A DNA stretch of 64,000 nt from Bolinopsis microptera (lineage: Eukaryota; Ctenophora; Tentaculata; Lobata; Bolinopsidae): positions 6,434,084 to 6,498,083 of the forward strand of contig NC_087072.1 in assembly GCF_026151205.1 (NCBI RefSeq). Reading direction: 5' to 3'. Below, piece by piece: positions 16,801 to 48,019 of this stretch. Position 1 is the first letter of the stretch, and each line of letters begins with the position of its first letter. The translations under genes and the position numbers were made by a program. The notes beneath the pieces were generated by a model. That model worked only from the letters and a program-made list of their open reading frames with translations. It searched no databases and was not told where the DNA came from.

Positions 16801-19800
16801 AGCCACGGTGACTAATTGTAGAATACCGGACTTTCAGGCTGCCACTCGACATCAAATATTTGCAGCACAAAATCGACTTCGCTCTCCAACGACTCTTAGT
16901 ATTGTTTAACAAAATATACGATTATAGTTTTTGTCATTTGATAATATTATCAAATTTTTTAAAACAACCAAATAAAACCAAAAGTATTTACTATAATCGA
17001 ATATCAAATTGTCAACAGGATTTGAAGCTCGTTACTGATATTTTAATTTGTAACGTGTATTCTTGTTTTTACAACATGATTTAGAGCTCAGTAGAAGTAC
17101 CAACTGACTGGAATAGAAATGAAGTTTTAATTTTATGTATAATTAGAAAATTAGAAAATTATAACTTATTTTATTCCTCCATTATTTCCGGCGTATAATT
17201 TCGTTCAACAATATATGCGGTTAATAAACGATCGCCCAATTATTCAACTTGGAACTGATTTCTCTATTACTCCTTGTGTAATCTTACTATATATAAAGCG
17301 AGACGATATATATATATATGTGTATATATCCGTGCCATTTTACTGACACCACGGCATCAACTTTAACGCGACTTTCCGCAAAAACCGTAAAAGATATACA
17401 ACTGAAACTTTTTTGACTGGGTCAAATGCTTTAATGGCCTTCGAATCAGCATGAAAAAATAAAAAATTTTAGTGCCCAAATAATTTTAGTGCCCAAAATT
17501 TGGACTCTCAAGTGGTGTCAAAAACGCGAATTAAATAGGTAATAATTATTTTAGTCTCTCGAGTCTTGACACCACTTTAGGGTAAGACGGGTTCCTGCTA
17601 GTGTGTATAATACGCCTACCAAACACAGCATAATTTCATTCATTTTCTTTTTCTAGCTGACCAAAATAGTCAAAACTCGAAATTCAACAAGTATGTATTT
17701 CTCTTACTTTGTATCCCAGTGCGATGCTATATGGCTCCAGTAAATAAGTTAATAAAACGTGTTGTAGGTTAAAGATCGGGGTGGCATCACCATGTGGCCT
17801 AGTTGATTACATTCATTAGTGTCCGAGTGTGAGGTAGCGCACGTTGCTATCCACAATAATTCCCACAATCAATTAAATGTATCAGACATGTTGGAAGAGT
17901 TTGATACATCGCTAGGCAACGTGGTGATTGTGAGATTTGTATTTTGTAAGAGCATGCTCATGATGAGCATGCTGAGCTTGATGATGTTTAGAGATAGTAA
18001 TGCAATTATATGACAAAGTTCCGACTTCAGCGATAGAACATCGCTGAAATATAAATTTTTAAATAATAATTTTAAATAATATACCACCTAAATCCGAATA
18101 TTTAGGTGGTTTATTATATACCACGTATATATAGACTAACATTTAACGAGATTGACAAGTGGATTCACACTTTCTTATGGGTTCATTATAAAAGGAATAT
18201 AAATTGACTGGCTAGACAAAAACTGTCGTCAAATTTAAACCCCTCATGATATCAGGTAGAACGGGTAGAAGTGTTAGGGAGAGTATTACCACCTGACTCA
18301 GACCTGACCCTGACCACGTACACTAACAACACTAACAACACTGATGTTATTGTTAATGATAACAACTTGGTCTCTACCTTCTCTCTGGACCTTGTTATTC
18401 CTATGAACGCTCCTCAACAGCAGGTAACAGTTTGTTGTCAAGCTCTCCGGTCTCCCATGTGAGAGAGAGCTGTAAACGGGAGCTGTTATCCAGGAACTAA
18501 CTCTGAAAATTTGCCCACTTTGACGTAAAATTTGACGAAATTAAACAATGAAGATATAATGCCGGTTAATTATTGTGAATAACACATTACCTTCTCCTCC
18601 TCCCCAGTTGACATGGTTTGTGACGAGGATTTGCCAGCGAATCAAGGAACAGCGCTCAGTCATGATAGTCATGTTAGGAGAAAACGACCTGACCATGTAC
18701 GGTACGCCGCAGTGCCATGGCCTATTGCGCCATCTTGTCAAATCTGTGAGTCTGGTTTTAACGACGTCTTATCTGCCAGTCTAGTTTAGTCAAATCTGTC
18801 AGTCTAGTTTTATAGCATCATGTCATCTGCAAGTTTAGCATTATCACAAGTTTATTTCAGCTGTTGTCGATGAAGAAGACAGAAGAGTTGTTAACTTTGT
18901 CCGTTGGCACTTTTGTCAATAATCAGGTTAATAAGAACTAAGAAAGCAGAAATACAATAAACTAGGTCAATTACCTAACCCATCATTCTATGACTTTCGG
19001 CGTGGCAAAGTTAGTACTGCGTTAGCAATTACGCAGATCTATATAAAAGTTAACTGTTCTATTTCAGATGTGTGATGGGTTAAGCGAATTCTCCATGCAA
19101 GATGGGAAAGTTACTGCTGTACCAATTACAGCACTAGATCTAGGAATTGAACTACTTTCTCAGGTAGATAATCATTATTGCCTAATTATAGAACATAGTA
19201 CTCAAGTTTGGTGTCAAAAAATAAATTTTCAAATAGATACACACAAATACATCAACCAATAAACTCAAACAGAAGGAAGGTTGTCCAAGTCCACAGTTCC
19301 AGTCTCTGCTGCCTGCTGAGCTTGTTTCTTCAGTAGATCTGCTCGTCTCTGTTTAGCTCTTCTGTTTTGGAACCAGGTCCTGATAGCGGTCTCCGACACT
19401 CCGATCTGTACACTGAAATCTAGGCGCTCATCTCTGTCGATTGTAGGGGACTTTTTGAACCGGATTTCCAGGCATTCCAGTTGGGCTGAGGTGAAGGAGG
19501 TACGGTTGTTAGTGATGGAAGCATGCTTGCTGTAGGGTGTATCAGCTGAAGGGGGAGAAGAGGATGAGGAGGATCTCTTGCGGGTTTTACCAAAGGTAGG
19601 TGGGTTGAGGGGATAGTGGCTGAGCAGGTCTAGCAGTTCTGTCTTGGAAATTTCCGAATCCATGAGTTTAGTTCTGTACTGTGTTTGGTCTATCCAGTGG
19701 AATGTGCTCGGTGGAGGAGGAGGGTAGGAACCGGGTTTGTGGTGAATAACAACAGAAGGAACTGGTTCTATAGTCTCGTCTACACTGTCTTGAGGGAGAG

Positions 19801-21342
19801 GAGGAGGAGAATTGTAGAGAGGAGGTGGAGTAGTCCTGGAGGGAGGTGTAATCTGTGTCTGTATTTGTGGGGGAGAATAGGTCTGTGGAGGGGATGAGTA
19901 CATCTGTGGAGGGGATGAGAAGGTCTCCTCGGATGAATATGTTGAAGGACACAGGTAGGATGGCGGAGATGTAGTCTGAATCATGTCAGGAGAGCTGTGC
20001 TGTGAAAAAGGTAAACATTTAGGAGGGCTGATAGGAGGGTAGAAGTAGTAGGGAACTGGGAGGACTGGCTGACAGGAGTATAGGTAGGAGTTCAGGAGTT
20101 GTTCCAGTGGAGTAAATGACATGGTAAAGTATTCTGTAGTTGTAGAAGTAGTGGGTAAACAAGGAAGATATTGTGATATGACTCTTAATTCTGGGTTCAG
20201 TATTTATACTACCGAAGGGATTTGATCGCTTGTGACAAGCTTGTTAGATGCCTTAGTTCCATTAGCTTGTTGGTTGGATGTGGATCGCATGTTCGTGCTG
20301 GTAAGCATGCCATGAAGGACGTGATCACTCGAAATGCATGGCAACGTGTCTCTTAGACGATCGAGATCACATCGTGTCGCATAACGATCACATCAGAGTA
20401 TAGAATTTAGTTATCGGATCATATTTTCATGACCTCGTACTGGATCACATTTTCCAGATCAGATCATTATCTTATCGTAAAAATTATCGTAGGTCACATT
20501 ACCAGTCATACAAAAAATTCTATAAATCTCAATTTGTAAACTACTGTCTGATCTGATTTATAAACATTGTAGTTTGATTTTAAAAGTATAATTATCAGAA
20601 ATGCTAAAAATTTGATAATTGCCCAGGCTGACATACCAGACGAAGTTGAGCAAGTTCTGCACCAGTTTACAATCAGAAACAGTGATGCCAGTACAGGATC
20701 AGTTTCGATATTGGAATGTGATAGCATGGATGCAGATTCTAGTGAAATACTGCATCAGTATCGGGCCTGTGGTAAAGTTTCGCCAGGAAGCCGACCTAAT
20801 GTGCTCTATGATACTGTTAATGCATACACAGGTATTAGCTTAATGACTTCCATACAGTGTATTGTTCGTTTTTGTTCATTTTCGTTAATAATTCGATCAC
20901 CGTATTGTATCTTTTAATGTTTTGCACGTTAAAACTCGAATCTTATTAATAACCGCCAACTGATGTGAGGCATTTTGCGTAACGCGCATTGCGAAAAAGG
21001 TACACAAATGTACTTATCTTGCACTCAGTGTAACATGATCTGATGCAGGTCACGTACGCGCACGCGAATTGACTAACGTAATCAAGCTTTGGTGCATGTA
21101 CTCAGTATAGTACTGCAAACGGTTTATTATGGGCCATGGGGATGAGTTTTAGAAATGAGCTTCTAATATACAAAATGTTCATTTCAGAAAAAGGTGGGGC
21201 GGTGACTGTGTTTCTAAACCTAAAACCAGATATCCAATCTACAGCAAACAGTCAGCGGCTTTTAAAATACGCATCTCAAATAACCGGAGTTGAGCCTGTT
21301 ACCCAAAACAGGAAAAGGGGGATATTCTCATTCAGGAGCTGA
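4805..21342 (+). CDS. Kinesin-like protein with coiled coils and a degenerate, P-loop-less motor
   Basis: Seventeen exons join in one open frame of 668 codons with stop: 4805-4897, 4997-5045, 5222-5358, 6182-6349, 6644-6706, 7126-7218, 7465-7641, 7874-7973, 8102-8244, 17657-17690, 17820-17938, 18256-18423, 18608-18745, 18861-18926, 19068-19163, 20627-20831, 21188-21342. All boundaries are GT-AG and the phases agree. The exon 11/12 junction is ambiguous: donor 17938 or about 17945, acceptor 18256 or 18278. The N-terminal half has heptad-rich stretches (exons 4-6, 8). The C-terminal half resembles a kinesin motor in order: GNVVIVRF near its start, then FSLDLVIP, LGENDLTMYG where the P-loop GQTGSGKTYT should be, and at the end GGAVTVFLNLKPD plus RLLKYASQITG, like the last strand and helix of motors. 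P-loop, switch I and switch II motifs are missing, so ATP hydrolysis is unlikely. A C-terminal motor after coiled coil suggests kinesin-14 ancestry (inference). Its introns contain three other genes. The ATG at 4805 sits just after an acceptor AG, so a 5' UTR intron is implied. Confidence 0.7.
5359..6181. other. Intron 3 of the kinesin-like gene, AT-rich repeats
   Basis: No exon is seen here. The intron holds several degenerate copies of a phrase like AATTTTAGTC and AATTTGGTT (5375-5480 and 5875-5985) that read as small open frames but have no coding features. They are oriented so that the two clusters are partly inverted to each other, which suggests a decayed inverted-repeat element. Confidence 0.35.
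8831..9541 (-). CDS. Single-exon coiled-coil protein nested in an intron
   Basis: An uninterrupted 236-codon frame lies antisense inside intron 9 of the kinesin-like gene. The product is almost entirely charged helix (E, K, Q, L rich, few Gly or Pro) with heptad spacing from about residue 3 to 236, so it should be a long coiled coil. There is no signal peptide, membrane segment or recognisable catalytic domain. One Pro-containing break (KKCDPVEVH, about residues 116-124) separates two coiled-coil segments, and the end (LVLDTNRCLKSIPELEASTA) could be a third short helix. The start MSSELDQL is the first ATG downstream of a TATA element at 9762-9773. No introns are apparent. Structural, filament or ciliary roles are possible but unsupported. 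Confidence 0.8.
   Translation of the reverse strand: MSSELDQLKATHEELRLQKRAIDRETEDTRTKTIEDKRVAAAEIEKLQLDLESLKEESAALNEKNKNLESNVANLKLDHEEKKKKQEEDYDNQRRAKQKLQFQEAKLCTKKVNIEKKCDPVEVHKLQIEELEKEVEHNKNEKEEVKKIYETEMNKLDNILSKVNFQKKTWEKKVQVAREQLLKLNANCINIRESSRKELFEKDLLLQRLVLDTNRCLKSIPELEASTAVLEKMIKE
9762..9773 (-). promoter_or_regulatory. TATA element of the nested coiled-coil gene
   Basis: On the minus strand this reads AGTATAAATACT, containing TATAAATA, 221 bp upstream of the start codon at 9541. The identical 12-mer precedes the other minus-strand nested gene at 20199-20210. Its identity as a promoter is inferred from consensus and position. Confidence 0.55.
9775..15661. other. Large intron and intergenic span without recognised genes
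   Basis: This is most of intron 9 of the kinesin-like gene between two nested genes. Open frames are all short, AT-driven and without domain features. The only structured element seen is the 16-bp tandem array at 13201-13313. A TATATAT run at about 15488-15495 lies some 170 bp upstream of the GPCR start and could serve as its TATA box, weakly supported. Confidence 0.5.
13201..13313. repeat. 16-bp tandem repeat
   Basis: About seven head-to-tail copies of AGTCTGTTACCCCCAC with substitutions AGTATG and CATAG are present, followed by a C-rich tail (about 13305-13320). The purine/pyrimidine bias makes the reverse strand G-rich. It lies in an intron, and no coding use is likely. Confidence 0.9.
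15662..16909 (+). CDS. Divergent rhodopsin-like (class A) GPCR, single exon
   Basis: A 415-residue frame without introns has seven hydrophobic segments at about 36-61, 72-94, 109-131, 148-171, 203-231, 300-324 and 344-368. Cys109 at the top of TM3 and Cys184 in the second extracellular loop are placed for the conserved disulphide. TM2 holds NITDG where LAxxD is usual. The DRY box is replaced by SRT (133-135). TM6 lacks CWxP (TIVYLTIN). The NPxxY site reads NVLVY (364-368). The third intracellular loop is long, Ser/Asn/Lys rich. The N-terminus has no clear signal peptide, and the alternative start is Met6. The ligand is unknown; the sequence does not show a biogenic amine or peptide signature. 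The gene lies in the same orientation inside intron 9 of the kinesin-like gene. Such intronless, motif-poor receptors are common in lineage-specific expansions. Confidence 0.88.
   Translation: MVSYNMSDSETGPSRMTTSYMMQMSETSPLQPLETYIFASLSILCFVFGLAGSFFSLLYFVNKFKTKRTSSTLLFILINITDGVICFLIVFAGVSHITGPTLFTNSIFCDVWGVLWYVAARMSIFLIGFLSISRTYIISRPFAEMKIWRVVVPAGVYLVIMVVQQTFVFWFGSRYHYDADFGHCSIDPMEAFHNLDEKKINFLMQVFFFICVPLENIFPWVLVIISCVLTIRSINKYNRQLSNGSNSSSGSINTQLSLSISAYCRFRRKFKSNSQHSQLSQHDKKPTTLRPNEDTKRTATINILILTIVYLTINTFSVAVFTMDFIEVFFYDKVAIYDKISHRAVNIIVLLAWVYAVALNSACNVLVYFCRLGSLRRFTVATVTNCRIPDFQAATRHQIFAAQNRLRSPTTLSIV
16910..17656. other. Intron remainder with microsatellite and short repeats
   Basis: No gene is seen. 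There is a TA/TG microsatellite at about 17310-17330 and a doubled phrase AATTTTAGTGCCCAAA at about 17466-17500. The words GACACCAC and GGTGTC recur in both orientations between 17345 and 17580, as in the remains of a small inverted-repeat element. Confidence 0.4.
17951..18120. repeat. Cluster of three intronic hairpins
   Basis: Three inverted repeats follow exon 11 of the kinesin-like gene within 170 bp: AGCATGCTCAT with its complement ATGAGCATGCT one base away (about 17951-17974), TTCAGCGAT with ATCGCTGAA (about 18027-18049), and ACCACCTAAAT with ATTTAGGTGGT extended by AT-rich flanks (about 18076-18120). All are perfect or nearly so in the core. The function is unknown. Confidence 0.7.
19265..20122 (-). 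CDS. Q50 paired-like homeodomain transcription factor, single exon
   Basis: The frame of 285 codons lies antisense in intron 15 of the kinesin-like gene. Residues 1-150 are Pro/Ser/Tyr/Gln rich, with runs of PPP and repeated SSPPQ/YSPPQ blocks, like a transactivation region. Residues 203-262 form a full-length 60-residue homeodomain: Arg207 (position 5), Phe210, Trp250 (position 48), Phe251, Gln252 (position 50), Asn253 (51) and Arg255 (53), in the motif TWFQNRRAKQRR. Gln50 and helix 3 suggest a PRD-like member, but helices 1 and 2 are divergent (ECLEIRFKKSPTIDRDERLDF), so no orthology group is claimed. A basic and serine-rich stretch (180-190) precedes the domain. There is no paired box. The absence of an intron in the homeobox is unusual for PRD-class genes and may reflect retrocopy origin. 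The nearest TATA element is at 20199-20210. Confidence 0.9.
   Translation of the reverse strand: MSFTPLEQLLNSYLYSCQPVLPVPYYFYPPISPPKCLPFSQHSSPDMIQTTSPPSYLCPSTYSSEETFSSPPQMYSSPPQTYSPPQIQTQITPPSRTTPPPLYNSPPPLPQDSVDETIEPVPSVVIHHKPGSYPPPPPSTFHWIDQTQYRTKLMDSEISKTELLDLLSHYPLNPPTFGKTRKRSSSSSSPPSADTPYSKHASITNNRTSFTSAQLECLEIRFKKSPTIDRDERLDFSVQIGVSETAIRTWFQNRRAKQRRADLLKKQAQQAAETGTVDLDNLPSV
20199..20210 (-). promoter_or_regulatory. TATA element of the nested homeobox gene
   Basis: AGTATAAATACT on the minus strand lies 77 bp upstream of the start codon. It is the same 12-mer as at 9762-9773. A promoter role is inferred from position and consensus. Confidence 0.6.
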
Positions 21343-29792: not shown

Positions 29793-30794
29793 ACTCAATT
29801 TTCAACTCAATATAAAGTCTCAAAGGGGGAAATTACTCAGGTCAGGATTGTAGGCAATGATTATGCCAAACCATACATTTTTGTAAATTCATTAAACTTT
29901 CAATCGAGTTTCCACGATGTTTTGACTAGTGCTACTGTTCTTTCTAGTTATGTTTGGTTGTGTAAATCATGCATGGAATCAAGCATTCCTATTAAACCAC
30001 GAAAATCGAAGAGCCGGCATGATAGTACTGTGAACAAATCAGATGATAATACTGTGAACAAATCAGATTCCGAATCTCAGCAACCCAAGCAGGATTTGAT
30101 TGCGTCACAAATGTCTTCATCCGAGGAAATCACAGAACACTCCACTTCTCAATCTAGTGTAGCAATTGACGATTCAGAGCTTCACGAGAAATCATCTGCT
30201 GCTGCGCAGGAGAGAATTTGTGAGAAGTACAAGCGTGGAAAGTGTCCTCATGGTCTCAAGGGGAAGAAGAAACATAATGGTCAGATTTGTGAGTTTGAAC
30301 ACCCGAAGTATTGTAACAGATTCTGTCAATACGGAAATCAGCACAAGTTTGGTTGCAGTAAAGGTCCAGACTGCAAGTTTCTTCACCCTGTGTTGTGCAA
30401 GTTTTCAGTTAAGAATAAACTTTGCACGAAGTCTGACTGCACTTTTATTCATTTGAAGGGTACCCGCCGTCAGACAAGCAACTCTGCTGTTGGACACAAG
30501 AAGGGAAAAGCAGAGAATAAGAAATCCATGCCATCAAAAGGTGTAACGGCGGCGAATCAGGATTTTTTAGAGTTACGGAGACTGTTGGAAACGATGCAAA
30601 CCAGGATCGGACTCCTATCAGAAATAGTCGACCACCGGTCCAGCCTCCCTCAAACTCAAATGCCCTACCACTACCCCAGACCACCTCCACCTCTTCAGCC
30701 AGGAACAGCGCTCCCACTATACCACTACCAGTACCCGCAGTTCCTACCGCCTCAGAGGACACACGTGCCCCTTATTCCTCATGCCTCGTCTTAA
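29793..30794 (+). CDS. LINE ORF1, PHD remnant plus CCCH zinc fingers (5' incomplete)
   Basis: The frame is open from 29793 (after TAA at 29790) to the stop at 30794. It has no good ATG at its start, and its N-terminus ends in VWLCKSCMES, like the last Cys pair of a PHD finger, so the beginning is missing. After a Ser/Thr/Asp-rich linker come three Cys/His clusters of CCCH form (CEKYKRGKCPHG..CEFEHPKYC, CQYGNQHKFGCSKGPDCKFLH, CKFSVKNKLCTKSDCTFIH), then a short helix (FLELRRLLETMQTRIGLLSEIV) suited to oligomerisation, then a Pro/Tyr-rich tail. Such ORF1 proteins bind the LINE RNA. The last 90 codons overlap an open -1 frame leading into ORF2. Confidence 0.75.
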   Translation, partial: TQFSTQYKVSKGEITQVRIVGNDYAKPYIFVNSLNFQSSFHDVLTSATVLSSYVWLCKSCMESSIPIKPRKSKSRHDSTVNKSDDNTVNKSDSESQQPKQDLIASQMSSSEEITEHSTSQSSVAIDDSELHEKSSAAAQERICEKYKRGKCPHGLKGKKKHNGQICEFEHPKYCNRFCQYGNQHKFGCSKGPDCKFLHPVLCKFSVKNKLCTKSDCTFIHLKGTRRQTSNSAVGHKKGKAENKKSMPSKGVTAANQDFLELRRLLETMQTRIGLLSEIVDHRSSLPQTQMPYHYPRPPPPLQPGTALPLYHYQYPQFLPPQRTHVPLIPHASS

Positions 30795-30805
30795 ATGTCC
30801 AGTCC

Positions 30806-33800
30806 ATGAATCCTAGTGCATCAAGTACGAGTAGATGGAAAGTGCCAGAAATCTCAGATCTTATTCAGGATGAGAAATCCAGAAACCACTCGTTACCGTT
30901 TATAGCACTTACGGAAACGTGGCTCAAGTCCTATATGTCAGACGCACAACTGCAAATACCAGGCTATTCGGTATCTCGCAGCGACCGTGATGCAAGGGTG
31001 GGAGGGGGTGTTCTACTCTACTCTCATGTCAACTTACCGGTCAGTGAGTGTAACACGTTTGATGACGGCACGTGTGAGGGACTTTTCTGTAGTTTCAGCA
31101 CTATAAAGACATGTGTTGCTGTGGCTTATCGTCCGCCTAATGCATCCTTGTCAAGCTTTAAAGCACTCCTCAGTTTTTTCTCCGTATGTATCAGTAGTAT
31201 TAATGACGACAGCTACGATATAATGATGACCGGAGACTTTAACTTACCCTCAATTGACTGGCAGACAAATTGTGTTCAATCTGGAGGCACGCAAGAAATT
31301 CAGCAGTCAGCACAGCATTTCTTAACTTTCATGTCTGATCATCTGCTGAGTCAGTACGTAATGTGTCCAACGAGAGGAAACAATGTTTTGGACCTGTTTA
31401 TTACTAACAACAACCGAGTTGTTACAAATGTTGAATGCAAAACCACAACAATGTCAGACCATCACGTGGTAGATGTTATGCTAGCATATAATCCACTTGA
31501 ACAGGAGAAATCAGCAGTGCCGAAGTTTGATGAAAACTCGTACAGATGCCTTGATTTTCTCCAAGCAGACTTCAGCTCGCTCAGAGACGAGATAGAAGAC
31601 ACTAACTGGTCTCAACTTCGTTCTTCATGCTCTTTTGAAGACTTCCCAGCCTTGTTTACTGAGACCCTCTTTCAGATATGCTCGTCTCATATTCCCCGCA
31701 AGGCTAAACCTTCTGGGCGCCCAAAACATACCAATGCTTTGCGGCGTAAAAGGAACCGACTCCAGGCAAGGCTGAATGCCTTAGTCAACAATGGTGCACC
31801 TGACGATCACATCAGAAATGTTAGGAACAAGGTTGCACTCCTACAGTATGATATTCGATGTGCCCATACCAAGAGACTTGATGAAAAGGAATCCAGGGCA
31901 GTAGAAAAGATCAAAACAAATCCCAAGTTCTTTTTCAGTTATGCTAAGTCTCTGTCGAAGATCAAATCCAGTATTAACATGCTCTTTGATAGCAACCAGG
32001 AGATAACCACAGACCCCAAGAAAATGGCCGATCTGCTGCAGGAACAGTTCAGCTCTGTGTTTAGCGATCCGACCTCTCCTGATGTTAAGGATCCGGTTTT
32101 CTCCCCTCCCTCTATCCAGCACCCACAAGAACTAGAGGACTTTAGAATTAGTGACGAAGATATCATTTCAGCTATAAAAAGTATCTCTACAGATTCTGCT
32201 TGTGGACCGGACGGAATACCTACAACTCTCTTGAAAAACTGTGCTAAGGAGTTGTGTTCTCCTATACGTATTATTTGGGAGGAATCATTTGAAAACGGTA
32301 CAGTGCCATCGTTCTACAAAGACACCTACATTACACCACTATTTAAAAAGGGTGACAGGGCCAAGGCAGTCAACTACAGACCAGTTGCTCTCACTTCGCA
32401 CATCATCAAAGTGTATGAACGTATCCTCCGTGGTGTTATGGTTGACTTTATTGAGAAAAATCAGTTACTCTGCAACAACCAGCACGGGTTCCGCTCAGGA
32501 AGAAGCTGCCTTACCCAGCTGTTAAGTCACGTAGACGATATAGTTCAAGGTCTTACTAGAAATGCAGACACTGACGCTATATATCTGGATTTTGCCAAAG
32601 CCTTTGATAAGGTCGATCATCGGTTACTGCTTCTGAAAATGAAGAGATTGGGGTTTCATGAGAAGGTGGTAAACTGGATCCGATCCTTCCTGACTGAAAG
32701 GAAGCAATGTGTTGTGTTAAATGGTGTATCATCGTTTGCTGCCGCAATCCTCAGTGGAGTTCCACAAGGCACCGTTCTTGGGCCACTGTTATTCATTCTG
32801 TTCATAAATGATATGAAGCTATGTGTTAAAGGGTCTGTCATCAGATTCTTTGCTGATGACACTAGGATTCTTAAGCATATCTACAGTTTGGCCGACAAAG
32901 ATGTCCTGCAGGATGATCTCAACTCTGTTGTTAATTGGGCTAAGTGCAACAACATGGCCCTTCATGAGGATAAGTTCGAGCTTCTTGTTCACAAGCATTG
33001 TCCAAAGAATTCCTTGTTTGATCATCCATTCGCCATCCAAGCGCAAACATATGAAGTGTCTAACGGAAACATGCTGTACCCCACTCAAACGGTGAAAGAT
33101 CTAGGAGTGACAGTTTCCGCTGATTTGTCCTGGACCCCACACGTCAACAGGATAGCTGAACGCGCAGGAAAAGTTGCTTCTTGGGTGCTAAGTGCGTTCA
33201 AAACGAGAGACAAAGCCACCATGATGACTCTGTACAAGTCTCTCGTTAGAAGCCATCTGGAGTATTGCTGTCCTCTGTGGAATTGCTCTAAGAACAAGGA
33301 CATCCAACAGCTAGAAGGGATTCAGCGTACGTTTACATTGAAAATAGATGGCACCCAGCACCTCAACTACTGGCAGAGATTAAAGGCCCTAGATCTGATG
33401 TCATTGCAAAGAAGAAGAGAACGGTATTTAATCATCAACATGTGGAAAGTTCTGCATTGCAAGTGCCCTAATGATATTGGTATCCAGTTCTCGGTGACTC
33501 TCAGACATGGTCAAAAAGCAGTTGTGCCTAGTATAGCTAAGTCCAGCAGTCAACGTAATCAAGCACTACATGACAACTCATTTGCAGTCACTGGACCTCG
33601 ATTATGGAATGTAATCCCGACACATATGCACACCATCGAGGATCCTATGCAATTCAAAGCGGCTTTAACGAACTTTGTGAAGTCATTTCCGGACGAGCCT
33701 CCAGCTCCAGGATACAGCCGTCGGAATGGAAACTCCTTGCTTGATTGGAGTGGTGATAAAACAGTTTCTACACTGTCCGGGGGGTCGACTTTTTCGATGG

Positions 33801-33808
33801 CCCGATAG
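30806..33808 (+). CDS. LINE ORF2: APE endonuclease and reverse transcriptase
   Basis: The 1000-residue frame is uninterrupted. The endonuclease has Glu37 (ALTETWL), YRPP (108-111), GDFNLPSIDW (143-152) and SDHH (217-220). The reverse transcriptase has YLDFAKAFDKVDH (Asp595), SGVPQGTVLGP and FADD (Asp684/Asp685), followed by the thumb and a C-terminal RLWNVIP block typical of CR1-like elements. It nicks target DNA and copies the element RNA at the nick. The ATG at 30806 comes after LNVQS, which belongs to the conserved endonuclease start, so true translation probably begins upstream. The same frame is open back to 30521 across the end of ORF1, so re-initiation or frameshifting is likely. Confidence 0.9.
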   Translation: MNPSASSTSRWKVPEISDLIQDEKSRNHSLPFIALTETWLKSYMSDAQLQIPGYSVSRSDRDARVGGGVLLYSHVNLPVSECNTFDDGTCEGLFCSFSTIKTCVAVAYRPPNASLSSFKALLSFFSVCISSINDDSYDIMMTGDFNLPSIDWQTNCVQSGGTQEIQQSAQHFLTFMSDHLLSQYVMCPTRGNNVLDLFITNNNRVVTNVECKTTTMSDHHVVDVMLAYNPLEQEKSAVPKFDENSYRCLDFLQADFSSLRDEIEDTNWSQLRSSCSFEDFPALFTETLFQICSSHIPRKAKPSGRPKHTNALRRKRNRLQARLNALVNNGAPDDHIRNVRNKVALLQYDIRCAHTKRLDEKESRAVEKIKTNPKFFFSYAKSLSKIKSSINMLFDSNQEITTDPKKMADLLQEQFSSVFSDPTSPDVKDPVFSPPSIQHPQELEDFRISDEDIISAIKSISTDSACGPDGIPTTLLKNCAKELCSPIRIIWEESFENGTVPSFYKDTYITPLFKKGDRAKAVNYRPVALTSHIIKVYERILRGVMVDFIEKNQLLCNNQHGFRSGRSCLTQLLSHVDDIVQGLTRNADTDAIYLDFAKAFDKVDHRLLLLKMKRLGFHEKVVNWIRSFLTERKQCVVLNGVSSFAAAILSGVPQGTVLGPLLFILFINDMKLCVKGSVIRFFADDTRILKHIYSLADKDVLQDDLNSVVNWAKCNNMALHEDKFELLVHKHCPKNSLFDHPFAIQAQTYEVSNGNMLYPTQTVKDLGVTVSADLSWTPHVNRIAERAGKVASWVLSAFKTRDKATMMTLYKSLVRSHLEYCCPLWNCSKNKDIQQLEGIQRTFTLKIDGTQHLNYWQRLKALDLMSLQRRRERYLIINMWKVLHCKCPNDIGIQFSVTLRHGQKAVVPSIAKSSSQRNQALHDNSFAVTGPRLWNVIPTHMHTIEDPMQFKAALTNFVKSFPDEPPAPGYSRRNGNSLLDWSGDKTVSTLSGGSTFSMAR

Positions 33809-38720: not shown

Positions 38721-39592
38721 TTCACTATAAGTTACATATAAACATGTCCAAGTGCTGCTACATACACTTCAAACCCAACATGGCAGGTTCTAAGTCAGAG
38801 ATTTTATCACACCCTGAACCTGTACTAACTGTAGACAACTATCCAATCAAAAAGGTTTCATCCGCAAAATTTCTGGGTGTTATAATTGACGAGAACCTAT
38901 CATGGGAAGATCACATTAAAGCTCTTAAGCGAACCCTAAATCATTCCACATCCACTTTATGTAGACTTCGCTGCTCCCTTCCAGAATTTCTACATCAACA
39001 ATTATATTATGCTCTGTTCGAATCACATCTTTCCTACTGTATATCTGTATGGGGTGGGGCAGCTAAGCAACGTATAAGCTCAATATTTACTGCTCAGAAG
39101 TACTGTCTCAGAGTACTATTTGGTGATAGGCTGGCGTACCTTGATAAGTTTAAGACTTGTGCACGTACTAGGCCTATAGGACACCAGAAACTTGACCAAA
39201 AATTTTTCATAAAAGAACACACCAAACCGATATTCAAGCATAATAATATTCTAGCTATACAAAATCTCTATACATACCACAGTTACCTCGAGCTCTACAA
39301 GATAATGAAATTCCGTGCTCCAATATCCCTATATGAGGGTTACACATGTTCGTCGAGGAAACCCTGCCTTCTTATCTGTCAGGTAGACCCACCTGACAAC
39401 CACAACACTAGGTCAACCAAAATTTTTAACATTTTAACCCCAAAGTTCAGAATGACTGACTTTACTACTAGTGTAATGTGCTTGCGAGGAAAACTTAAAA
39501 GTGCGCTATTAGCCAATCAGCATAACCACGCCCTGCTTGATTGGACCGTGAAAGATTTTGACTGCACAAATATTATTTTCCAAACATTATAA
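38721..39592 (+). pseudogene. 5'-truncated LINE reverse transcriptase fragment
   Basis: The frame reads KLHINMSKCCYIHFKP, KFLGVIIDENLSWEDHIK, LYYALFESHLSYCISVWGGAAK, then QKYCLRVLFGDR and HNTRSTKIFN, ending at the stop 39592. It corresponds to the RT thumb and C-terminal region of the same LINE family as the minus-strand element at 40964-46621 (for example CCYIHFKP, KFLGVIIDxxLxWxxHI, CARTR). It has no RT core and no internal stop. This is a dead-on-arrival copy truncated at its 5' end. Confidence 0.88.
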
Positions 39593-40963
39593 CTGGCTGT
39601 TCCCACACATCTCAATTAAATTCCTCTAGGCTACTGTTTTCCAAGTCTTGTCCTGTGAGTAAAGAATGTGTGAGAAGGTATTAATAAAATAAATTTATAT
39701 TTTTTGAATTTTTAAATCTAATCTGAGAATGAAGTATAAAGAAATTTTTAATTAGCACTGTATAGTTTAAGATATTTATAGCTTATTATAGAGAAACAAA
39801 TTTTAGAGAAACAAATTTGAATTTTGATCTTTATTACAGATTAAACATATCATATATAACCATAAAAGCCGCGCGTCGGCTGATTGCTTCAACTTGGATT
39901 GGTAGTAATTTCAGTTTACAGAAGCTGAAGGACGGCAGCTCAAAAGCCCCAGTGAACCATCGGAAAGATCAAGGACTCGAGTGCCAATAGTGGCTTTTTC
40001 GAACCCATTTTCGCCGATTTGCTGTGGCCCAGATGAGCCGCGCCCTGCTGCTTAACGGCACATGGTGGTTTTTGTTTAAATACTTATTTAAATTTAAGCG
40101 ATAATTCATTTGGTGGTTTACAGTTTTTGAATCATGTTCATCATTTATTTTTCGTTCAATTATCACGTTTTTACAATTCAGTCATACCATGCATAGTCAA
40201 CATTGTTGAGGCAACCAGCTTCCGCAGTTCAATAATTGGAGACCGAAAAATATAAATTGATCGAAATTTACAATTCATCGTTATCAAATATAGTCAATAA
40301 TATTCTTGATTCCATTTAGTACATAATAAGTTGGTTTTATTCTCTTGCAACACTACTGCACAACAAAAACTGCGCCTGTCCACCAGCAACAGCGCAGTCA
40401 TAGGTGTGCAGCCAAAGCTAGGCCACACACCCATGGCCGCGCCGGTTAAACAACTCTATATTCAATCGTTATATTAGGAAATTTTAGTTAATTCTTTGAT
40501 CACTCTTCAGTGCAGGTGGGCAGGCGCCCCGCATAGTTGGCTTTCCAAATTTACAGTCTCAAGAAAGCCGATACGGTAATCGAGTCCCGGAGCAGAACAC
40601 ACATTTAGAAAATTGAAAAATTAAAATTAAAATTAAAATAACAAATTAGAAATTAAAAATTAAAAATTACATGACTACGAGAGTCCAGACAGGCGACAAA
40701 CACACAAACCGGACGAAGAGAGGACCCACTGCTGAATTCGACATATAATGAATTGTTGAAAACATAATGATTCCTACACTAATATGATCTTGAGGCATGC
40801 CCTGCATGTACTGTGCGAGTACATTGTAAATAATATCTGATAAGATGGGCCAAAAATAGCGGCACAGCGCGCAAAATGCGCGGCGTGACCGCCGAAATTT
40901 TATACTTTAGACATTAACATTTCAATCGGCTTTAGCGCTCAGCATATCTTCATTGAGTAGACA
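39593..40963. other. Intergenic and LINE 3' flank, low complexity
   Basis: No gene was found. A low-complexity AATTAAA-type run lies at about 40612-40668. The last 100 bases or so are probably the 3' untranslated end of the minus-strand LINE that follows. Confidence 0.45.
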
Positions 40964-42581
40964 TTAGAATTTCAGTTCGTTGGGATCGAAGTTCAGTTCA
41001 CACCAATCTATTTCGTCGTACCTGGACTGCATGCCGAGTAACTCCTTTTTTATTGTGGATTTCACAAGGTTCGTTGATGTAGAGAAGTTGATATTGCTAG
41101 CAGTGTTTCTACAATCGTTCCACATTTTTGTCGATTGATATATGAAGGAGGTGGATGGGGTTGGAGTGATGAATCGATCAGCACGTCTTGATGATCTGTT
41201 AAATAGATTTAGGAGTGGGACTGGGGATTCTAATTTATTGATTTTGAACATTTCCAATAAACATGTGTGTTTGAACAAACTGTGTATGGTTAGTAAACCA
41301 TTTTTCTTAAATAGCGGTTTTGTGTGCTGTTTTTCATAGAAGTCGCTTCCTAATTTTTGCTTGTCTTTACTTCGTGTTCTAGCACAAGTTCTAAACTTTT
41401 CTAAGTACGCCTCTCGGTTACCAAATAGTATTCTAACACATTTCTTCTGAGTGATAAATATTGGTTCAAGCCTGTTGTTACTAAGGCCACCCCATACTGA
41501 TATCCCAAATCGCAAGTGTGATTCAAATAGTGTGTAGTACAGTTCTTTGTAGAGTTTTTCTGGAATAATGTGCCGTATTCTACAAATTTTCCCACTTTCA
41601 CATTTCAGCTTTGTGTTGAGCGACCGTATATGAGCATCCCATTTAAGCTGATCATCAATAATAACACCAAGAAACTTCACCTTTTTGACTTGCTTTATTA
41701 CTACATTGTTTAGAGTAAGTACGTGTTCTTCTTCATTATGTTCTACCTTGCTTTTTCTATTCGTTGGTTTAAAGTGAATGTAACAGCATTTCTTAATGTT
41801 AATATGCAGGAGATTACATTTCATATACAGTTGTACCAGTTTGAGAATTTGGTTTGCTCGTTCATATAACTTTATCTTACATTCATCCGCGACAAATATA
41901 TTTGTATTGTCAGCAAATAGAATGAACTTGCCTAGTTCAGTTGCCCTATATAGGTCGTTGATATAAATAATAAATAGTAACGGACCAAGACAAGATCCCT
42001 GGGGTACTCCAAAGAGAACTGGAAGCTTGTCAGACTCTTCTCCTAGGACCGAGACGTATTGATATCTATTAGAGAGATAACTAGCAATGAGTTTGTTGGC
42101 ATTGCCTCGAATTCCGTAATTATCTAGCTTACTCAGTAATTTGTCAGCTGAGATGGTATCGAATGCTTTGCTTAGATCAATGAATATTCCGAGCACGTGC
42201 TGCTTTTTATTAAGGCATGATTCTATATAATTCACTGAGAAATTCAGGGCATGACTAGTAGAGTGATTTTTACGGAATCCATACTGATTTTCATAGATCA
42301 TATTTTGTGACTGGAAAAAGCTGTATAGCCTACTATATATAATTTTCTCGAATAACTTACCAAATACGGCTAAGGTAGAGACTGGTCTATAGTTTTCAAG
42401 TAATTCTTCATTTTCTTTCTTGTATATGGGACTGATCCTGCCAATCTTTAAATCGTCCGGGAATATTCCCTCCTTCAAACATTCATTGTATAGTACAGAT
42501 AATAGGGGGGCGATAATTCTGGATGACGCTTTTACAACATGTATTGGGATATCAGACGATTTGCCATTTTTCAATTCTGAT
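40964..42581 (-). pseudogene. LINE ORF2, reverse transcriptase half
   Basis: From the hAT junction the frame continues ELKNGKSSDIPIHVVK into the RT: LKIGRISPIYKK, NYRPVSTL, YGFRKNHST, FIDLSKAFDT (Asp133 of the downstream frame), GVPQGSCLGPLLF and FADNTNIF, then thumb and tail to the stop at 40964. The catalytic FADD box reads FADN at residues 220-223, a single G-to-A change that removes the second metal-binding Asp. The reading frame is otherwise open for 536 codons. Confidence 0.9.
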
Positions 42582-43754
42582 TAGGGTTTGCAATCGATAA
42601 TATCGGCGATAAAATTATAGGCGATAATTCGAAGTAAAATCGTTATCGGTTATCGGCGATAATTTCTGACCGATAAACCGATAATTTCAGAAATTTCTTT
42701 TCAAAAATAATTTCGGAATTTTCGAGACTTTACAGCTAACTCGCAGATTCTTACCTCCCATTTTCACTAGATTGATCATAAGATATGTGTGAAACTGATC
42801 AAAACATCTGAATTTGCTACTTAAGTACTTAAATCAGCAAGATTTGCAATGTTATCTTATCACTGTTGATTGGTGAAACAAGGTATGTACTATGTAAAAG
42901 TATTCATATTTCATGGGATAGTTGCATATTTGAATTCAACGGAGTTACAACCGTATAAGGTAATAATTTGAACCCGACACAGTACACACCATAACAAAAC
43001 AATACACTCCTGCACACTCCACACTCCACGCCCCTCCCCTGAGAAATGCCGATGATTAACTTGCCTGGGTCGCTCATTTGCTTAAATCGTTGATTGATTA
43101 CGTTACACGTATCAGTTGTTATCTGTTTTCTGTTGTGTCTCGGAAAACTAGTTAATCTTGATATGTCAACCAACGAGATCTGGAAACATTTCACAAAAGA
43201 GGGGGACAACGTGGCCTGCATGCAATGTGACAAGTCTTTTCTCAGCACAACAGCCAAAAGGTCTTACACTAGTCTTTGGTACCACTTGAGAGTTAAACAC
43301 GGTATAGAAAACGCAGCTGCTAATAATGATAAATCTTCGGCATCCCCCAAAGTCAAGCGACCAAAAAATCAGTCCCTAATAGTATCTTACATCGAAAAGA
43401 AAACTCAAGCCGAAATGTATAGCTGTTTAGCGGCTGTGGAGTTCCACTTTGTGTAAGATTGTTATTGTCACTGACTGTTCACTGTAAAGTATATCGGATC
43501 TTCACTTTCAATTAATTGACTATTTTGAAATTACGCGTTTACAATTTGTGTACGATATCTCGGGAATTCATGACACTCAATCACGGAAGTTATAAATCAT
43601 GAACGTATGATTAATTAAGCCACTGAATCGATGGAAAATAAGCTGATTGTTCTGACCAAATTTTATCGCCGATAATTATCGTTATCGCCGATAATTGAAA
43701 AATTATTATCGGTTATCGGCGATAAAAAATGTTGGACCGATAATGCAAACCCTA
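42582..43754 (+). mobile_element. hAT-family transposon, non-autonomous, with BED finger remnant
   Basis: The termini are TAGGGTTTGCA and TGCAAACCCTA, flanked by the exact 8-bp duplication ATTCTGAT (42574-42581 and 43755-43762). The subterminal regions are packed with ATCGGCGATAA/TTATCGCCGAT motifs in both orientations, probable transposase binding sites. The 8-bp duplication and the BED finger are hAT hallmarks. The catalytic region is missing (1.17 kb in total). Confidence 0.92.
43163..43456 (+). pseudogene. BED-type zinc finger of a hAT transposase
   Basis: From Met at 43163 the product starts MSTNEIWKHFTKEGDNVACMQCDKSF and continues TSLWYHLRVKHG: aromatic lead, C-x2-C, then H-x4-H, a BED finger that binds transposon ends. 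Sequence after the finger is basic and ends at 43456, about 97 residues in. The RNase H-like DDE domain and the hATC dimerisation region are absent. The frame extends upstream to 43094, but that part looks non-coding. Confidence 0.8.
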
Positions 43755-43762
43755 ATTCTGAT

Positions 43763-45502
43763 ATTATTTTACATACTTCATCGATTGTACAATCATGCAT
43801 GTAAATACTGGTCGTGTTGGATTTTGGTAGGTAGTCATAGATACTGGGGATGCCATTAATTAATAGTTCGCCGATTTCATTGTATGCCTCGTTAAGATTA
43901 GAAGCTAGGGAGACAAAGTACTTATTAAACTCATTAGCTATTACCCTACGATTAGTAATTTTTTCATTATTGATAGTAAATAGAGGTTTGGTTTGTCGTT
44001 TTCGTTTACCCCGTATTTGGTTAATTAATTCCCACGTCTTTTTACTGTTTCCGTGCAACTCTGCAAATTTTCCACCATAGAACTTAGATTGAGCATTGCG
44101 GCGATCTTTTTTGACCTTCCGCCTGCAGTCACTGTATTTTTTATACTTGTCACGTTTTGAGCAACATATTGGGCATTGGCATGTCCCCCCTTTATTTTCA
44201 ATTTCCCCAAATTTACATTTAACTTTTCTGACCTTTACCCATTTATCGTAAAGTTCGTGCTGATATGAAATTTTGCCCACAAGGTCTGGTGTAATCCATG
44301 GGTTGTTCAGTGCTGTTCTTTTAGAGCATTTAGGGGTTTCTAACTTACAAGTTCTATCTATACAGTCCTTAAATATGTCGTGAAATGTTGTAAAATTGTC
44401 GATAACATTATTATTGAGATCATGTTCCAGAGTCTGTAAAAAAGCTTTTACATTCGGTTTGTTGTAATCATAATACTGTTTGTATTTCAGGTCAATTCTG
44501 CTAGAGTCCAAGTTTCTATCAAAGATTTGGAAGATGGGTGAGTGGTGTGATATACGGTCAGTCAGTATTCCAGAAGCTACTATACTCTCTACGTCGTTAG
44601 TTATTATGTTATCAATACAGGATGCTTTGCAGCCTGGTTTCTCATGTGTTGCTAACGAAATTAGGGGGAAAAATCCTTTACTTAATAGTATTTCTTCATA
44701 GCGTTGTACGATTGTGCTATTCTTATCGTGTAAATCAATGTTAAAATCACCCGCTAGGTAACTACACTTGGGGAGACTGTCAAGGATGTCAGAGAGTTCA
44801 GATAGTGCAACATTGACATTACCACTTGGAGGACGGTACATTACACCAACTGTTACTGGGGAAGTTGTACTACTTACGGCCACAAAAAGAGTTTCTAAAT
44901 GTTCAGTGATATGGGATACATTGCCGTTTACTCTGGCACTAAGAGTGTCACAAACATAGAGAGCCACTCCAGTGCCCTTTTTTTATCTGGTATTGTGTTT
45001 TGGTAGAAACTGTTGTATCCAGTTAATTGATACAAACTGCTGGATTCAGGACCTTCATTTGTTTCCGCTAAGGCTATGATCGAGAATTTCTTGGTGAGCC
45101 TATGGGATTCAATAGCGAAAGTGTCGAAATTTGACTTATTGCCGTCGATGTTTTGGAAGAGAAGCGATGAAAATTCATTCATTTGATTATCTAGTGCTTT
45201 GTTGAATTCCTTGACATTGTACGATACGCAGTTATTTAGTATTTGATCTACTTTTATGATAGTGTCATCCACTTCACTACTTTCAATATCACTTAAATTA
45301 GTGCATGCAAGTCGAAATGGATTGTAACGAATAACTGCTAAATGTACGCACTTGGGACAGTAAAAATCGTCAGATAATGTGTCATTGTTAATGGATTTGG
45401 TATAGCACTTATGGTGCATTGGGCAGTCGCATTCACAGCATTCAACAATGAATTGTCCTACGTTAATGAACTTCGCACAGACTAGGCATACCTCTTTACT
45501 CA
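43763..45502 (-). pseudogene. LINE ORF2, PHD-like finger and endonuclease half
   Basis: Two minus-strand frames make up this part. The first (about 45502-44985) has a Cys/His finger, CLVCAKF, CCECDCPMHHKCY, YCPKC, then the endonuclease start LFQNIDGNKSNFD and IIALAETNEG. The second (44970-43763) continues VALYVCDTL, VGVMYRPPSG, AGDFNIDLHD, SCIDNII and ISHHSPI, then a long linker with a CPICCSKRDKYKK knuckle and the sequence leading to the RT. The frames are offset at a run of seven A residues on the minus strand (44980-44986). One more base would join them, so this is a homopolymer deletion or a sequencing error. It joins the RT half across the hAT insertion. Confidence 0.85.
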
Positions 45503-45508
45503 GGGGAG

Positions 45509-46621
45509 TCAGAATGGCTGGTAACCATCCTGGTGTCGAGACTCAGCAGCAGTAGTAGAACCCGTCCCACTCAACACGTTCCAAAATGAGCGTCCATCAA
45601 CCTCGTCTGTTCTCCTTTTCCTTCTATCAACTCCTCCATTCATTCTAAGAAGCACTGTGTTACGAATCAAAGTGCCTAGTTTAGCTGTACCCCTCCAGTT
45701 AAGGTGGAGATAATCTGGTCGCTGGTCTCGGCCGATGTTTCTGGAGAACTGTTGGCTAAGAAGCCCAGCATCATCACAGAACCCACCGAACCCATCGACG
45801 TAAGTCACACCAAAATTTGAAGGGATCAGCTCTGTCAGAATAAGGCGGTTAAAGCAAACAACTTTTCTATTCAGTTCAGCAAGCTTTGTAGGCAGGGCTG
45901 GACAAACATATACATGTGCCTTAGGGTTAATAGCATGAATTTTCTCAATCTTTTTAATAAAGGGAATAAATACATTTCGTTTAATATCAGCTGTATTCTT
46001 GATCTCAGGTTTTTTAAGATCATTAATCGCACACATCAAAACAACGTTACGATAACCACATGTGACATATGGGTCAATCTGGTCAACCACTGGTGCAAAA
46101 TATTGCCTCCCAGGGAACCATTGTCCAAACGATTTCCTGGCATCTGACCCAAACTTAAGCCCCCCTGTATGACTGTCTCCTATGATGCACGTAGAGTTCT
46201 TGTTCCTGAAGCTAACTGAACGAAAAGTTAGGCTGTATCTGACCCCACCAGTTATTGCCCCATCCATGATACAGTGGCTGTAATACTCTTGGCTACTTCG
46301 TGTCATGCGATACATGGATCTTGGAACACATGGGTGGTCAAGGACTATATCATCCGTCTTCTTGTCAAAGAATTTTATGTTGCACTGGCCTCCGATGGAC
46401 ACAGTGAAAATTTCGGATTCGGGGTGGATGGTGGCTTCATCATCCGAATGTTTTGGTAGGGAGCCATCCTCTTTGAAGCGGTTGATCAGCAGACTATTGA
46501 TCTTCGGTTTCTCACCACTACAGAATGCCCCATTGATTTTGTCCATCAGTTTGGAGAAGCTAACCATTGATACAAAGGCCATAATCTTTCGCAAGCTCTT
46601 TAATATACACCTTGAAGCCAC
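45509..46621 (-). CDS. LINE ORF1: AlkB-like 2OG-Fe(II) dioxygenase fused to SGNH hydrolase
   Basis: The 370-residue frame is intact. Residues about 41-138 match the AlkB fold signature: INSLLINRF, HSDDE with H58-x-D60 (iron ligands), IFTVSIGG, Y114-S-H116 as third ligand, and R128-Y-S-L-T-F-R134, the family's RxNxTxR 2-oxoglutarate site with Ser for Asn. Residues about 143-325 match SGNH/GDSL hydrolases: IIGDSH (Ser150), CAIND (Asn200) and DYLH (Asp303, His306). The frame ends 7 bp upstream of the ORF2 finger coding region, in another frame. Esterase-type ORF1 proteins are known in CR1-clade LINEs. AlkB proteins remove alkyl groups from nucleic acids, including RNA of some plant viruses. An AlkB-SGNH ORF1 is not one I recognise. 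The start is uncertain: the first codon here is GTG, and Met14 is the first ATG. Confidence 0.8.
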   Translation of the reverse strand: MASRCILKSLRKIMAFVSMVSFSKLMDKINGAFCSGEKPKINSLLINRFKEDGSLPKHSDDEATIHPESEIFTVSIGGQCNIKFFDKKTDDIVLDHPCVPRSMYRMTRSSQEYYSHCIMDGAITGGVRYSLTFRSVSFRNKNSTCIIGDSHTGGLKFGSDARKSFGQWFPGRQYFAPVVDQIDPYVTCGYRNVVLMCAINDLKKPEIKNTADIKRNVFIPFIKKIEKIHAINPKAHVYVCPALPTKLAELNRKVVCFNRLILTELIPSNFGVTYVDGFGGFCDDAGLLSQQFSRNIGRDQRPDYLHLNWRGTAKLGTLIRNTVLLRMNGGVDRRKRRTDEVDGRSFWNVLSGTGSTTAAESRHQDGYQPF

Positions 46622-47275: not shown

Positions 47276-48019
47276 AGTTGTGGACACAACAAGAAAATTG
47301 AGAATAATCTTGTGCGAGGGTAGGCACCCAGATGTCGTTTCTAACCCAAATAAACTTTAAGGAGGCTTCTCATCAGTAGCCGCACCTCCTTACTCAGTTT
47401 CTGAACTGGAATTCTATGGGCTTCCAGACGGCCAGACCGAGTATTACCATCCCATCCTTCTAGAGTTCATCACAAGTAGCACCCACCTTGAAGATCTTTG
47501 ACACCCAGACACACCCCATTGGCGAACAAACTTTGGATATAATCTTACATGCTCCCGAAGGAATCCCTGGTTTATGGTCTTTCTCATCGTCACCAGCACT
47601 TTCACTAGGTCACCAGCTCTTTCACTGAAGTCATCAGCCCTTTCACTGAAGTCATCAGATGTGACTCTGATCAACGGTATAGTTGTGGACACAACAAGAA
47701 AATTGAGAATAATCTTGTGCGAGGGTAGGGACCCAGATGTCGTTTCTAACCCAAATAAACTTTAAGGAGGCTTCTCATCAGTAGCCGCACCTCCTTACTC
47801 GGTTTCTGAACTGGAATTCTATGGGCTTCCAGACGGCCAGACCGAGTATTACCATCCCATCCTTCTAGAGTTCATCACAAGTAGCACCCACCTTGAAGAT
47901 CTTTGACACCCAGACACACCCCATTGGCGAACAAACTTTGGATATAATCTTACATGCTCCCGAAGGAATCCCTGGTTTATGGTCTTTCTCATCGTCACCA
48001 GCACTTTCACTAGGTCACC
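47276..48019. repeat. Recent 339-bp tandem duplication, period 405 bp
   Basis: The segment 47276-47614 recurs at 47681-48019 with only about two differences (CACC/GACC and CTCAG/CTCGG). The 66-bp separator carries a 21-bp micro-repeat (CCTTTCACTGAAGTCATCAG) next to the shared end. A minus-strand open frame across it (48268-47849, about 139 codons) ends in a stretch like a decayed transposon or LINE tail but cannot be identified. Confidence 0.85.

Follow-up and report, generated by a model that had tools for sequence, protein, structure and literature searches.

Paired AlkB dioxygenase-like and SGNH hydrolase-like domains in LINEs and Helitrons of the ctenophore Bolinopsis microptera

We have found in the genome of Bolinopsis microptera a family of transposable elements in which the first open reading frame joins an AlkB-type dioxygenase domain to an SGNH hydrolase domain. 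The element is a LINE of CR1/L2-like architecture, its reverse transcriptase (RT) having been compared among elements of the same genome only, and it is almost certainly an AlkB-SGNH LINE. Its ORF1 protein is predicted to start with a PHD finger and a coiled coil, after which come an AlkB dioxygenase of ALKBH3/2-like type and an SGNH hydrolase. The architecture and the predicted folds are established, as are the near-identity of copies, the conservation of the catalytic residues and purifying selection, and the same pair of domains occurs in other LINE families and in Helitrons.

The copy in the window and its full-length relatives

The window is a stretch of 64,000 nucleotides, and the parts of the copy that it contains are collected in Table 1. 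A first-pass annotation of this DNA had described a 370-aa frame that we find present on the minus strand (46621..45509), with every residue it had numbered: H58-S-D60, H116 and R128-Y-S-L-T-F-R134 of the AlkB part, and S150 in GDSH, N200 and D303..H306 of the SGNH part. As it had also proposed, ORF2 follows downstream on the same strand, with an endonuclease region (PF14529) and then a reverse transcriptase (RVT_1). The frame had been called intact, and this it is not. Element DNA starts only at 46561, so that flanking DNA supplies the start codon and roughly 20 residues at the beginning of the frame, and the AlkB domain is without its N-terminal part.

Table 1. Features of the AlkB-SGNH LINE copy, in positions of the window
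Feature	Position	Strand	Basis
AlkB-SGNH LINE copy, subfamily A, 5'-truncated, with nested 1.17-kb insertion	39804..46561	-	blastn against L031
370-aa open frame: element part 45509-46561, flanking part 46562-46621	45509..46621	-	comparison with L031
AlkB (2OG-Fe(II) dioxygenase) domain, C-terminal two thirds	46214..46564	-	Pfam PF13532, E 4.4e-9
AlkB residues: HxD 46450-46442, His 46276-46274, R..R 46240-46220		-	tblastn residue map to L031
SGNH hydrolase domain: Ser 46174-46172, Asn 46024-46022, Asp 45715-45713, His 45706-45704	45638..46213	-	
ORF2 start: PHD-like zinc finger and endonuclease start; overlaps ORF1 end	44928..45542	-	open frame
ORF2, second frame: endonuclease (EEP) region	43663..44982	-	PF14529, E 6.8e-4, below cut-off
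hAT-like insertion in ORF2	42582..43754	+ (strand of BED-finger-like frame; orientation unsettled)	letters, open frame
ORF2 continued: reverse transcriptase	40964..42580	-	RVT_1, E 2e-35
3' UTR and 3' end	39804..40963	-	sequence letters

The window copy is 99.8% identical to the full-length copy L031 over 2,809 bases and 99.9% over 2,778 bases (blastn). Near 44.95 kb its ORF2 breaks into two frames that overlap, the alignment to L031 being one base different over 2,809, and the 1.17-kb insertion interrupts it further. This has 11-bp terminal inverted repeats TAGGGTTTGCA and an 8-bp target duplication ATTCTGAT; we take it to be hAT-like, and by eye we liken its plus-strand frame to a BED zinc finger. 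We regard this 5'-truncated copy as young but dead. A short tandem repeat of about AAATTTGTTTCTCTA closes the element at its 3' end; it is present twice here and once in L031, and no poly(A) was seen there in the letters of either copy.

Some neighbouring features of the window may be recorded. The frame at 38744-39592 (+), next to the element's 3' end, looks by eye like the C-terminal portion of an ORF2 from an AlkB-LINE, in the opposite orientation, and has no Pfam match. At about 47340-47910 a stretch of some 400 bases is duplicated in tandem, with the same frames recurring 405 bases apart. Probable host genes, again by eye, are a GPCR-like gene (15662-16909, +) and one for a homeobox protein (19265-20122, -).

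A search for copies in the genome from which the window comes (264.65 Mb, 232 contigs) gave 888 candidates and 111 scored matches. These are stop-free within the match in 106 cases, and fall into groups of about 99, 77, 58, 57, 53, 52 and 50% identity. The complete element was studied in six full-length copies (L031-L036), together with the ORF1 of L019. In all seven ORF1 is 672-742 aa long from its first Met and is arranged as PHD finger, helical stretch, AlkB and SGNH. The eight Cys/His ligands of the PHD finger are invariant in the seven rows, and Pfam recognizes PHD in four of six, under cut-off. The ORF2 frame runs to 1,121-1,184 aa where unbroken (L031, L033-L036), and in the two ORF2s searched with Pfam (L031 and L036) the order is PHD-like finger, EEP endonuclease and RT, with PHD in L031 at E 0.0026, below cut-off. 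A LINE of the L068 family is nested in the ORF2 of L032 and interrupts it. ORF1 and ORF2 lie side by side in the same order in each of the six full-length copies. This is the CR1/L2-type layout, with ORF1, then ORF2 carrying an EEP endonuclease and RT, and a repeat tail.

The AlkB and SGNH domains

That AlkB and SGNH folds are combined in one LINE ORF1, as the first-pass annotation had it, is borne out by Pfam and by predicted-fold comparison. The profile 2OG-FeII_Oxy_2 (PF13532) scores 37.3 bits in the window frame, over the cut-off of 31.2, and 43.2-60.1 bits in the six full-length ORF1s, all of which pass it. The match covers positions 90-194 of the 194 in the profile for the window and 43-194 for a full-length copy. 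The predicted structure of the domain is a double-stranded beta-helix, and so the 2OG-Fe(II) fold on which the earlier reading depended is found by profile and fold alike. Lipase_GDSL_2 (PF13472) gives 21.2 bits in the window frame (E 4.6e-4), below its curated cut-off of 32.9. None of the LINE ORF1s exceeds this cut-off; those ORF1s or pieces with a match lie at 15.8-27.7 bits, and L035, L050 and L063 searched whole give none. The SGNH Ser, Asn and Asp..His occur in the right order, and the predicted structure has the SGNH fold. Among Helitron frames PF13472 is over cut-off in L066 (37.8) and L060 (34.7), and under it in L041 (31.1) and L058 (28.1). Chance similarity was considered for the AlkB and SGNH matches and rejected, on the Pfam matches of the full-length ORF1s and the fold comparison.

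The residues of the window frame map to H430, D432, H488, R500, R506, S522, N572, D675 and H678 of L031. Conservation under purifying selection in other copies had been proposed as a check, and the catalytic residues are indeed kept across copies and subfamilies. With 43 loci matched, N419, H430, D432, H488, R500 and R506 show no variation in the 38-42 loci covering each, and the SGNH S522 is kept in 37 of the 38 that cover it. Since many of these loci are near-identical, two alignments of 7 rows (A1) and 12 rows (A2) provide more independent evidence. The Fe ligands HxD..H and the arginines R..R are invariant in both, the most distant rows of A2 being 21-24% identical to its first row.

The AlkB domain of the elements is under purifying selection. 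Pairwise Nei-Gojobori dN/dS on this domain is 0.16 between subfamilies A and B and 0.15 between C and D, the remaining 19 of 21 subfamily pairs being saturated. Values are 0.039-0.054 for divergent pairs within an 843-aa family described below, 0.13 for L043-L061, and 0.13-0.31 for those Helitron pairs that differ by more than two changes. Pairs with low counts are little informative, for example L053-L062 with 5 changes and a dN/dS of 0.19.

Which AlkB does the domain resemble? By sequence profile ALKBH3 (4.5e-22) is closest, then ALKBH2 (1.3e-18), with ALKBH5 at 1.6e-3. In the fold comparison ALKBH3, 2 and 6 are tied with ALKBH5 about two Z units lower, and Foldseek places ALKBH6 first for the model of the whole ORF1. 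It is the sequence profile that favours an ALKBH3/2-like domain, at ~20% identity, the fold comparison separating the candidates poorly. Human ALKBH3 and ALKBH2 give the best matches by profile and are among the best by fold; they differ in being host repair enzymes of ~20% identity to the element domain. There is a further difference in the RxNxTxR motif, where the element domains have S whereas ALKBH2 and the three host-like AlkBs of this genome have N. The profile comparison did not find an ALKBH5-like sequence of the kind seen in the orchid-type m6A demethylase. The much closer profile match to ALKBH3 and ALKBH2 than to ALKBH5 favours m1A/m3C over m6A as substrates. Members of the AlkB family act also on proteins or tRNA.

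The domain pair in other LINEs and in Helitrons

How widespread is the pair in this genome? PF13532 gave 587 candidates, of which 150 were scored, and all the matches listed are over cut-off. Thirty AlkB loci (L037-L066) were sampled, leaving out L059, which is without a readable frame. Three of the 30 are host-like AlkB genes, L037 being nearest to ALKBH2 (3.9e-60) and L038 and L039 to ALKBH3 (2.5e-39 and 1.6e-27). The other 26 form four groups by length, motif and sequence, of 12, 6, 7 and 1 loci, with Pfam run on representatives; some frames end before the SGNH part, such as L046, L061, L062 and L065. The PF13532 matches listed also include further frames, roughly 676, 707 and 778 aa long.

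In L050 a PHD-AlkB-SGNH frame has the start of an ORF2 behind it, its SGNH domain being recognized by PF00657 (0.0027) and by GDS, GTND and D..H motifs. An AlkB-SGNH ORF1 accompanied by EN and RT is found in L067 (593 aa; RT 2.1e-29) and L068 (551 aa; RT 6.3e-36). L042, L043 and L074 represent an AlkB-SGNH family of 611/644 aa, of which an ORF2 piece (L047 with L072) is 42% identical to the ORF2 of L068. A distant branch has an 843-aa AlkB-helical-SGNH frame with EN and RT 2.4e-28 (L057 with L070); its SGNH is matched at E 9.6e-4 in a C-terminal piece and 0.0078 in L056 whole, with no match in L063 whole. The window itself holds a second LINE at 29922-33808 (+), different from the AlkB-SGNH LINE and with an open 1,000-aa ORF2 (EN and RT). 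Pfam found no AlkB in its ORF1 (29922-30794), and weak matches to CCCH-type fingers instead. Thus AlkB is not required by the LINEs of this host generally. One other candidate, a 1,474-aa frame (L073; G000:C11:15168861, region 15168800-15172900), was considered as a gypsy-SGNH gene and rejected by eye. It appears to have arisen by an insertion accident, a gypsy-like pol frame reading on in phase into the SGNH domain of a truncated LINE copy.

The pair is also found in Helitrons. The AlkB match L058 (G000:C10:16875843; AlkB 1.9e-21, SGNH 3.4e-6) lies in an open frame of 3,388 aa that contains, in frame, L071 with Helitron_like_N (PF14214, 1e-22) and PIF1 (PF05970, 6.7e-22). A single polyprotein therefore carries SGNH, AlkB, Helitron_like_N and the PIF1 helicase, in that order, and belongs to a Helitron. 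Further SGNH-AlkB Helitron frames are L060 (open frame 3,321 aa), L066 and L041. The order of the two domains is the reverse of that in the LINEs.

In an AlkB tree of 21 readable domains, subfamilies A-G and L050 are grouped (95/96), and the 843-aa family joins the three host-like AlkBs (96/94). Joins of this kind carry a long-branch warning, in the RT tree as well, and for this reason we draw no count of AlkB captures from the AlkB tree. The reversed domain order is the better sign of separate assembly. Between subfamilies A and B (L031 and L019), identity in ORF1 is 98-100% up to nt 840, 88-96% from there to nt 1560, and 65-76% beyond that point, which lies just past AlkB. We read the ORF1 of these subfamilies, from the steps in identity, as a probable mosaic, which would fit the modular evolution of ORF1 that PMC4120745 describes in the Jockey superfamily.

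An AlkB carried by a TE has been described before. Ty3/Gypsy elements of the orchid Phalaenopsis carry an AlkB ORF, with m6A demethylase activity shown in vitro (PMC9289625), the sole report found in the literature searched. They share with the present elements a TE-encoded AlkB with HxD..H..R..R and a proposed action on TE RNA. However, these are plant LTR elements with an ALKBH5-like domain in a separate ORF, and SGNH is unmentioned in the accessible parts of that paper, whereas here an apparently ALKBH3/2-like AlkB is coupled to SGNH in animal LINE ORF1s and Helitrons. SGNH and PHD in LINE ORF1 are likewise already known. The Type IV (esterase) and PHD-bearing ORF1 types of CR1/L2 LINEs share SGNH/esterase, PHD and coiled coil with our element, as well as the endonuclease and RT of ORF2 (PMC4120745, PMC3905857). 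According to the available portions of these papers retrotransposon esterases are known from chordates, cnidarians and sponges, the esterase type of ORF1 being reported by PMC4120745 from two groups of vertebrates only; neither of the two main texts contains 'alkb' or 'oxygenase'. Plant positive-strand RNA viruses have AlkB in the replication protein, a ssRNA stage and the same HxD, H and RxxxxxR residues (PMC544882). They differ in that AlkB is part of virus replicases, with SGNH unmentioned in the text accessible. Fold matches of the element in a viral structure library include several plant-virus replicases, and scans of viral contigs with A1, the Helitron N-terminal part of L066 and the L067 ORF1 gave no relatives. 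Among the matches listed in searches of an open-access (PMC) library there was no report of AlkB in LINE ORF1, of AlkB in Helitrons, or of recurrent AlkB-SGNH pairing.

A possible role for the AlkB domain

We suggest that ORF1p would coat the element RNA, and that its AlkB domain, with Fe(II) and 2-oxoglutarate, would strip off the N-methyl groups that sit on the Watson-Crick face of bases (m1A, m3C), either in the RNA template, which is single-stranded, or in single-stranded DNA. A template cleared in this way would let the element's own reverse transcriptase copy it to full length. Excision repair is impossible for single-stranded intermediates because they have no intact partner strand, and the presence of AlkB in positive-strand RNA viruses, in LINEs with their ssRNA and in Helitrons with their ssDNA might have a single shared reason. 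For the SGNH domain the probable task is to bind membranes or lipids, or to act on them, while RNPs are assembled, a role already suggested for the ZfL2-1 esterase (PMC3905857). Judged from its family, the AlkB domain is likely to be catalytic and to act on the element's own nucleic acid. That clearing m1A/m3C from the template is its main role is a choice that follows from the profile being closest to ALKBH3/2 and from RT-blocking as a common problem of ssRNA templates, and we regard it as evenly poised. A bench analogue, to go by the available text, is the use of AlkB as a reagent ahead of small-RNA sequencing (PMC12768352). Taken as a whole this is the best explanation we can offer, and it has about an even chance of being right. 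A broader reading can be put forward only tentatively. AlkB and SGNH may constitute a shared 'single-strand care' module, repeatedly acquired or exchanged by several LINE families and Helitrons of one animal lineage, in which AlkB would clear methyl lesions from ssRNA or ssDNA and SGNH would handle membrane or lipid contact.

AlkB might instead be an epitranscriptomic counter-defence, erasing m6A (or m1A) laid by the host on element RNA and thereby averting sequestration or decay, as proposed for the plant elements. The presence of m6A writer and reader families in the genome (7 matches to MT-A70 and 5 to YTH) keeps this alive, but ALKBH5 is a poor profile match beside ALKBH3, and taken alone it leaves unexplained the Helitrons, with their DNA intermediate, unless their mRNA is the target; we think it rather unlikely. 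PHD-type fingers in ORF1 and at the ORF2 start of the window's family, together with ALKBH2 as the second best profile, would suit an enzyme guided by PHD to chromatin or DNA at the target site, acting for example on 6mA or alkylated DNA and easing integration or lifting silencing. However, the 551-aa, 593-aa and 644-aa families have AlkB-SGNH without a Pfam PHD match in ORF1 (E 0.05), and such a role seems improbable.

LINE ORF1 proteins are mainly RNA-binding, and Pfam gave no RRM or CCHC in the ORF1s searched, both of which speak for a degenerate, non-catalytic AlkB fold kept solely as an RNA-binding platform. Against this, the residues for Fe(II) and 2-oxoglutarate do not vary, either in the 12 rows of A2, of which the most distant are 21-24% identical to the first, or in the 39-42 loci that cover them, and we consider it very improbable. 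In-frame accidents do occur, as the 1,474-aa frame demonstrates. Yet a host AlkB gene beside an unrelated LINE, the danger foreseen in the first-pass annotation, or a chance fusion, is refuted by the 106 of 111 matches that are stop-free in several subfamilies, by the constant order of ORF1 and ORF2 in the six full-length copies, and by the location of the host's own ALKBH2- and ALKBH3-like genes at other loci.

Why LINE ORF1 proteins carry enzymes is an open question, and no settled role has been assigned to the SGNH esterase of ORF1. In these young multi-copy elements another enzyme, of clear chemistry and under selection, stands beside SGNH, and the same pair is present in Helitrons. This opens a direct test of whether base methylation limits the copying of retrotransposon templates, and whether elements bring an eraser of their own. 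The range of TE-borne enzymes of demethylase type would grow from one plant LTR lineage to take in animals and two more classes of element. If true, the single-strand care module would be a new class of accessory function for retrotransposons and Helitrons in animals, from which to our knowledge no such function has been known.
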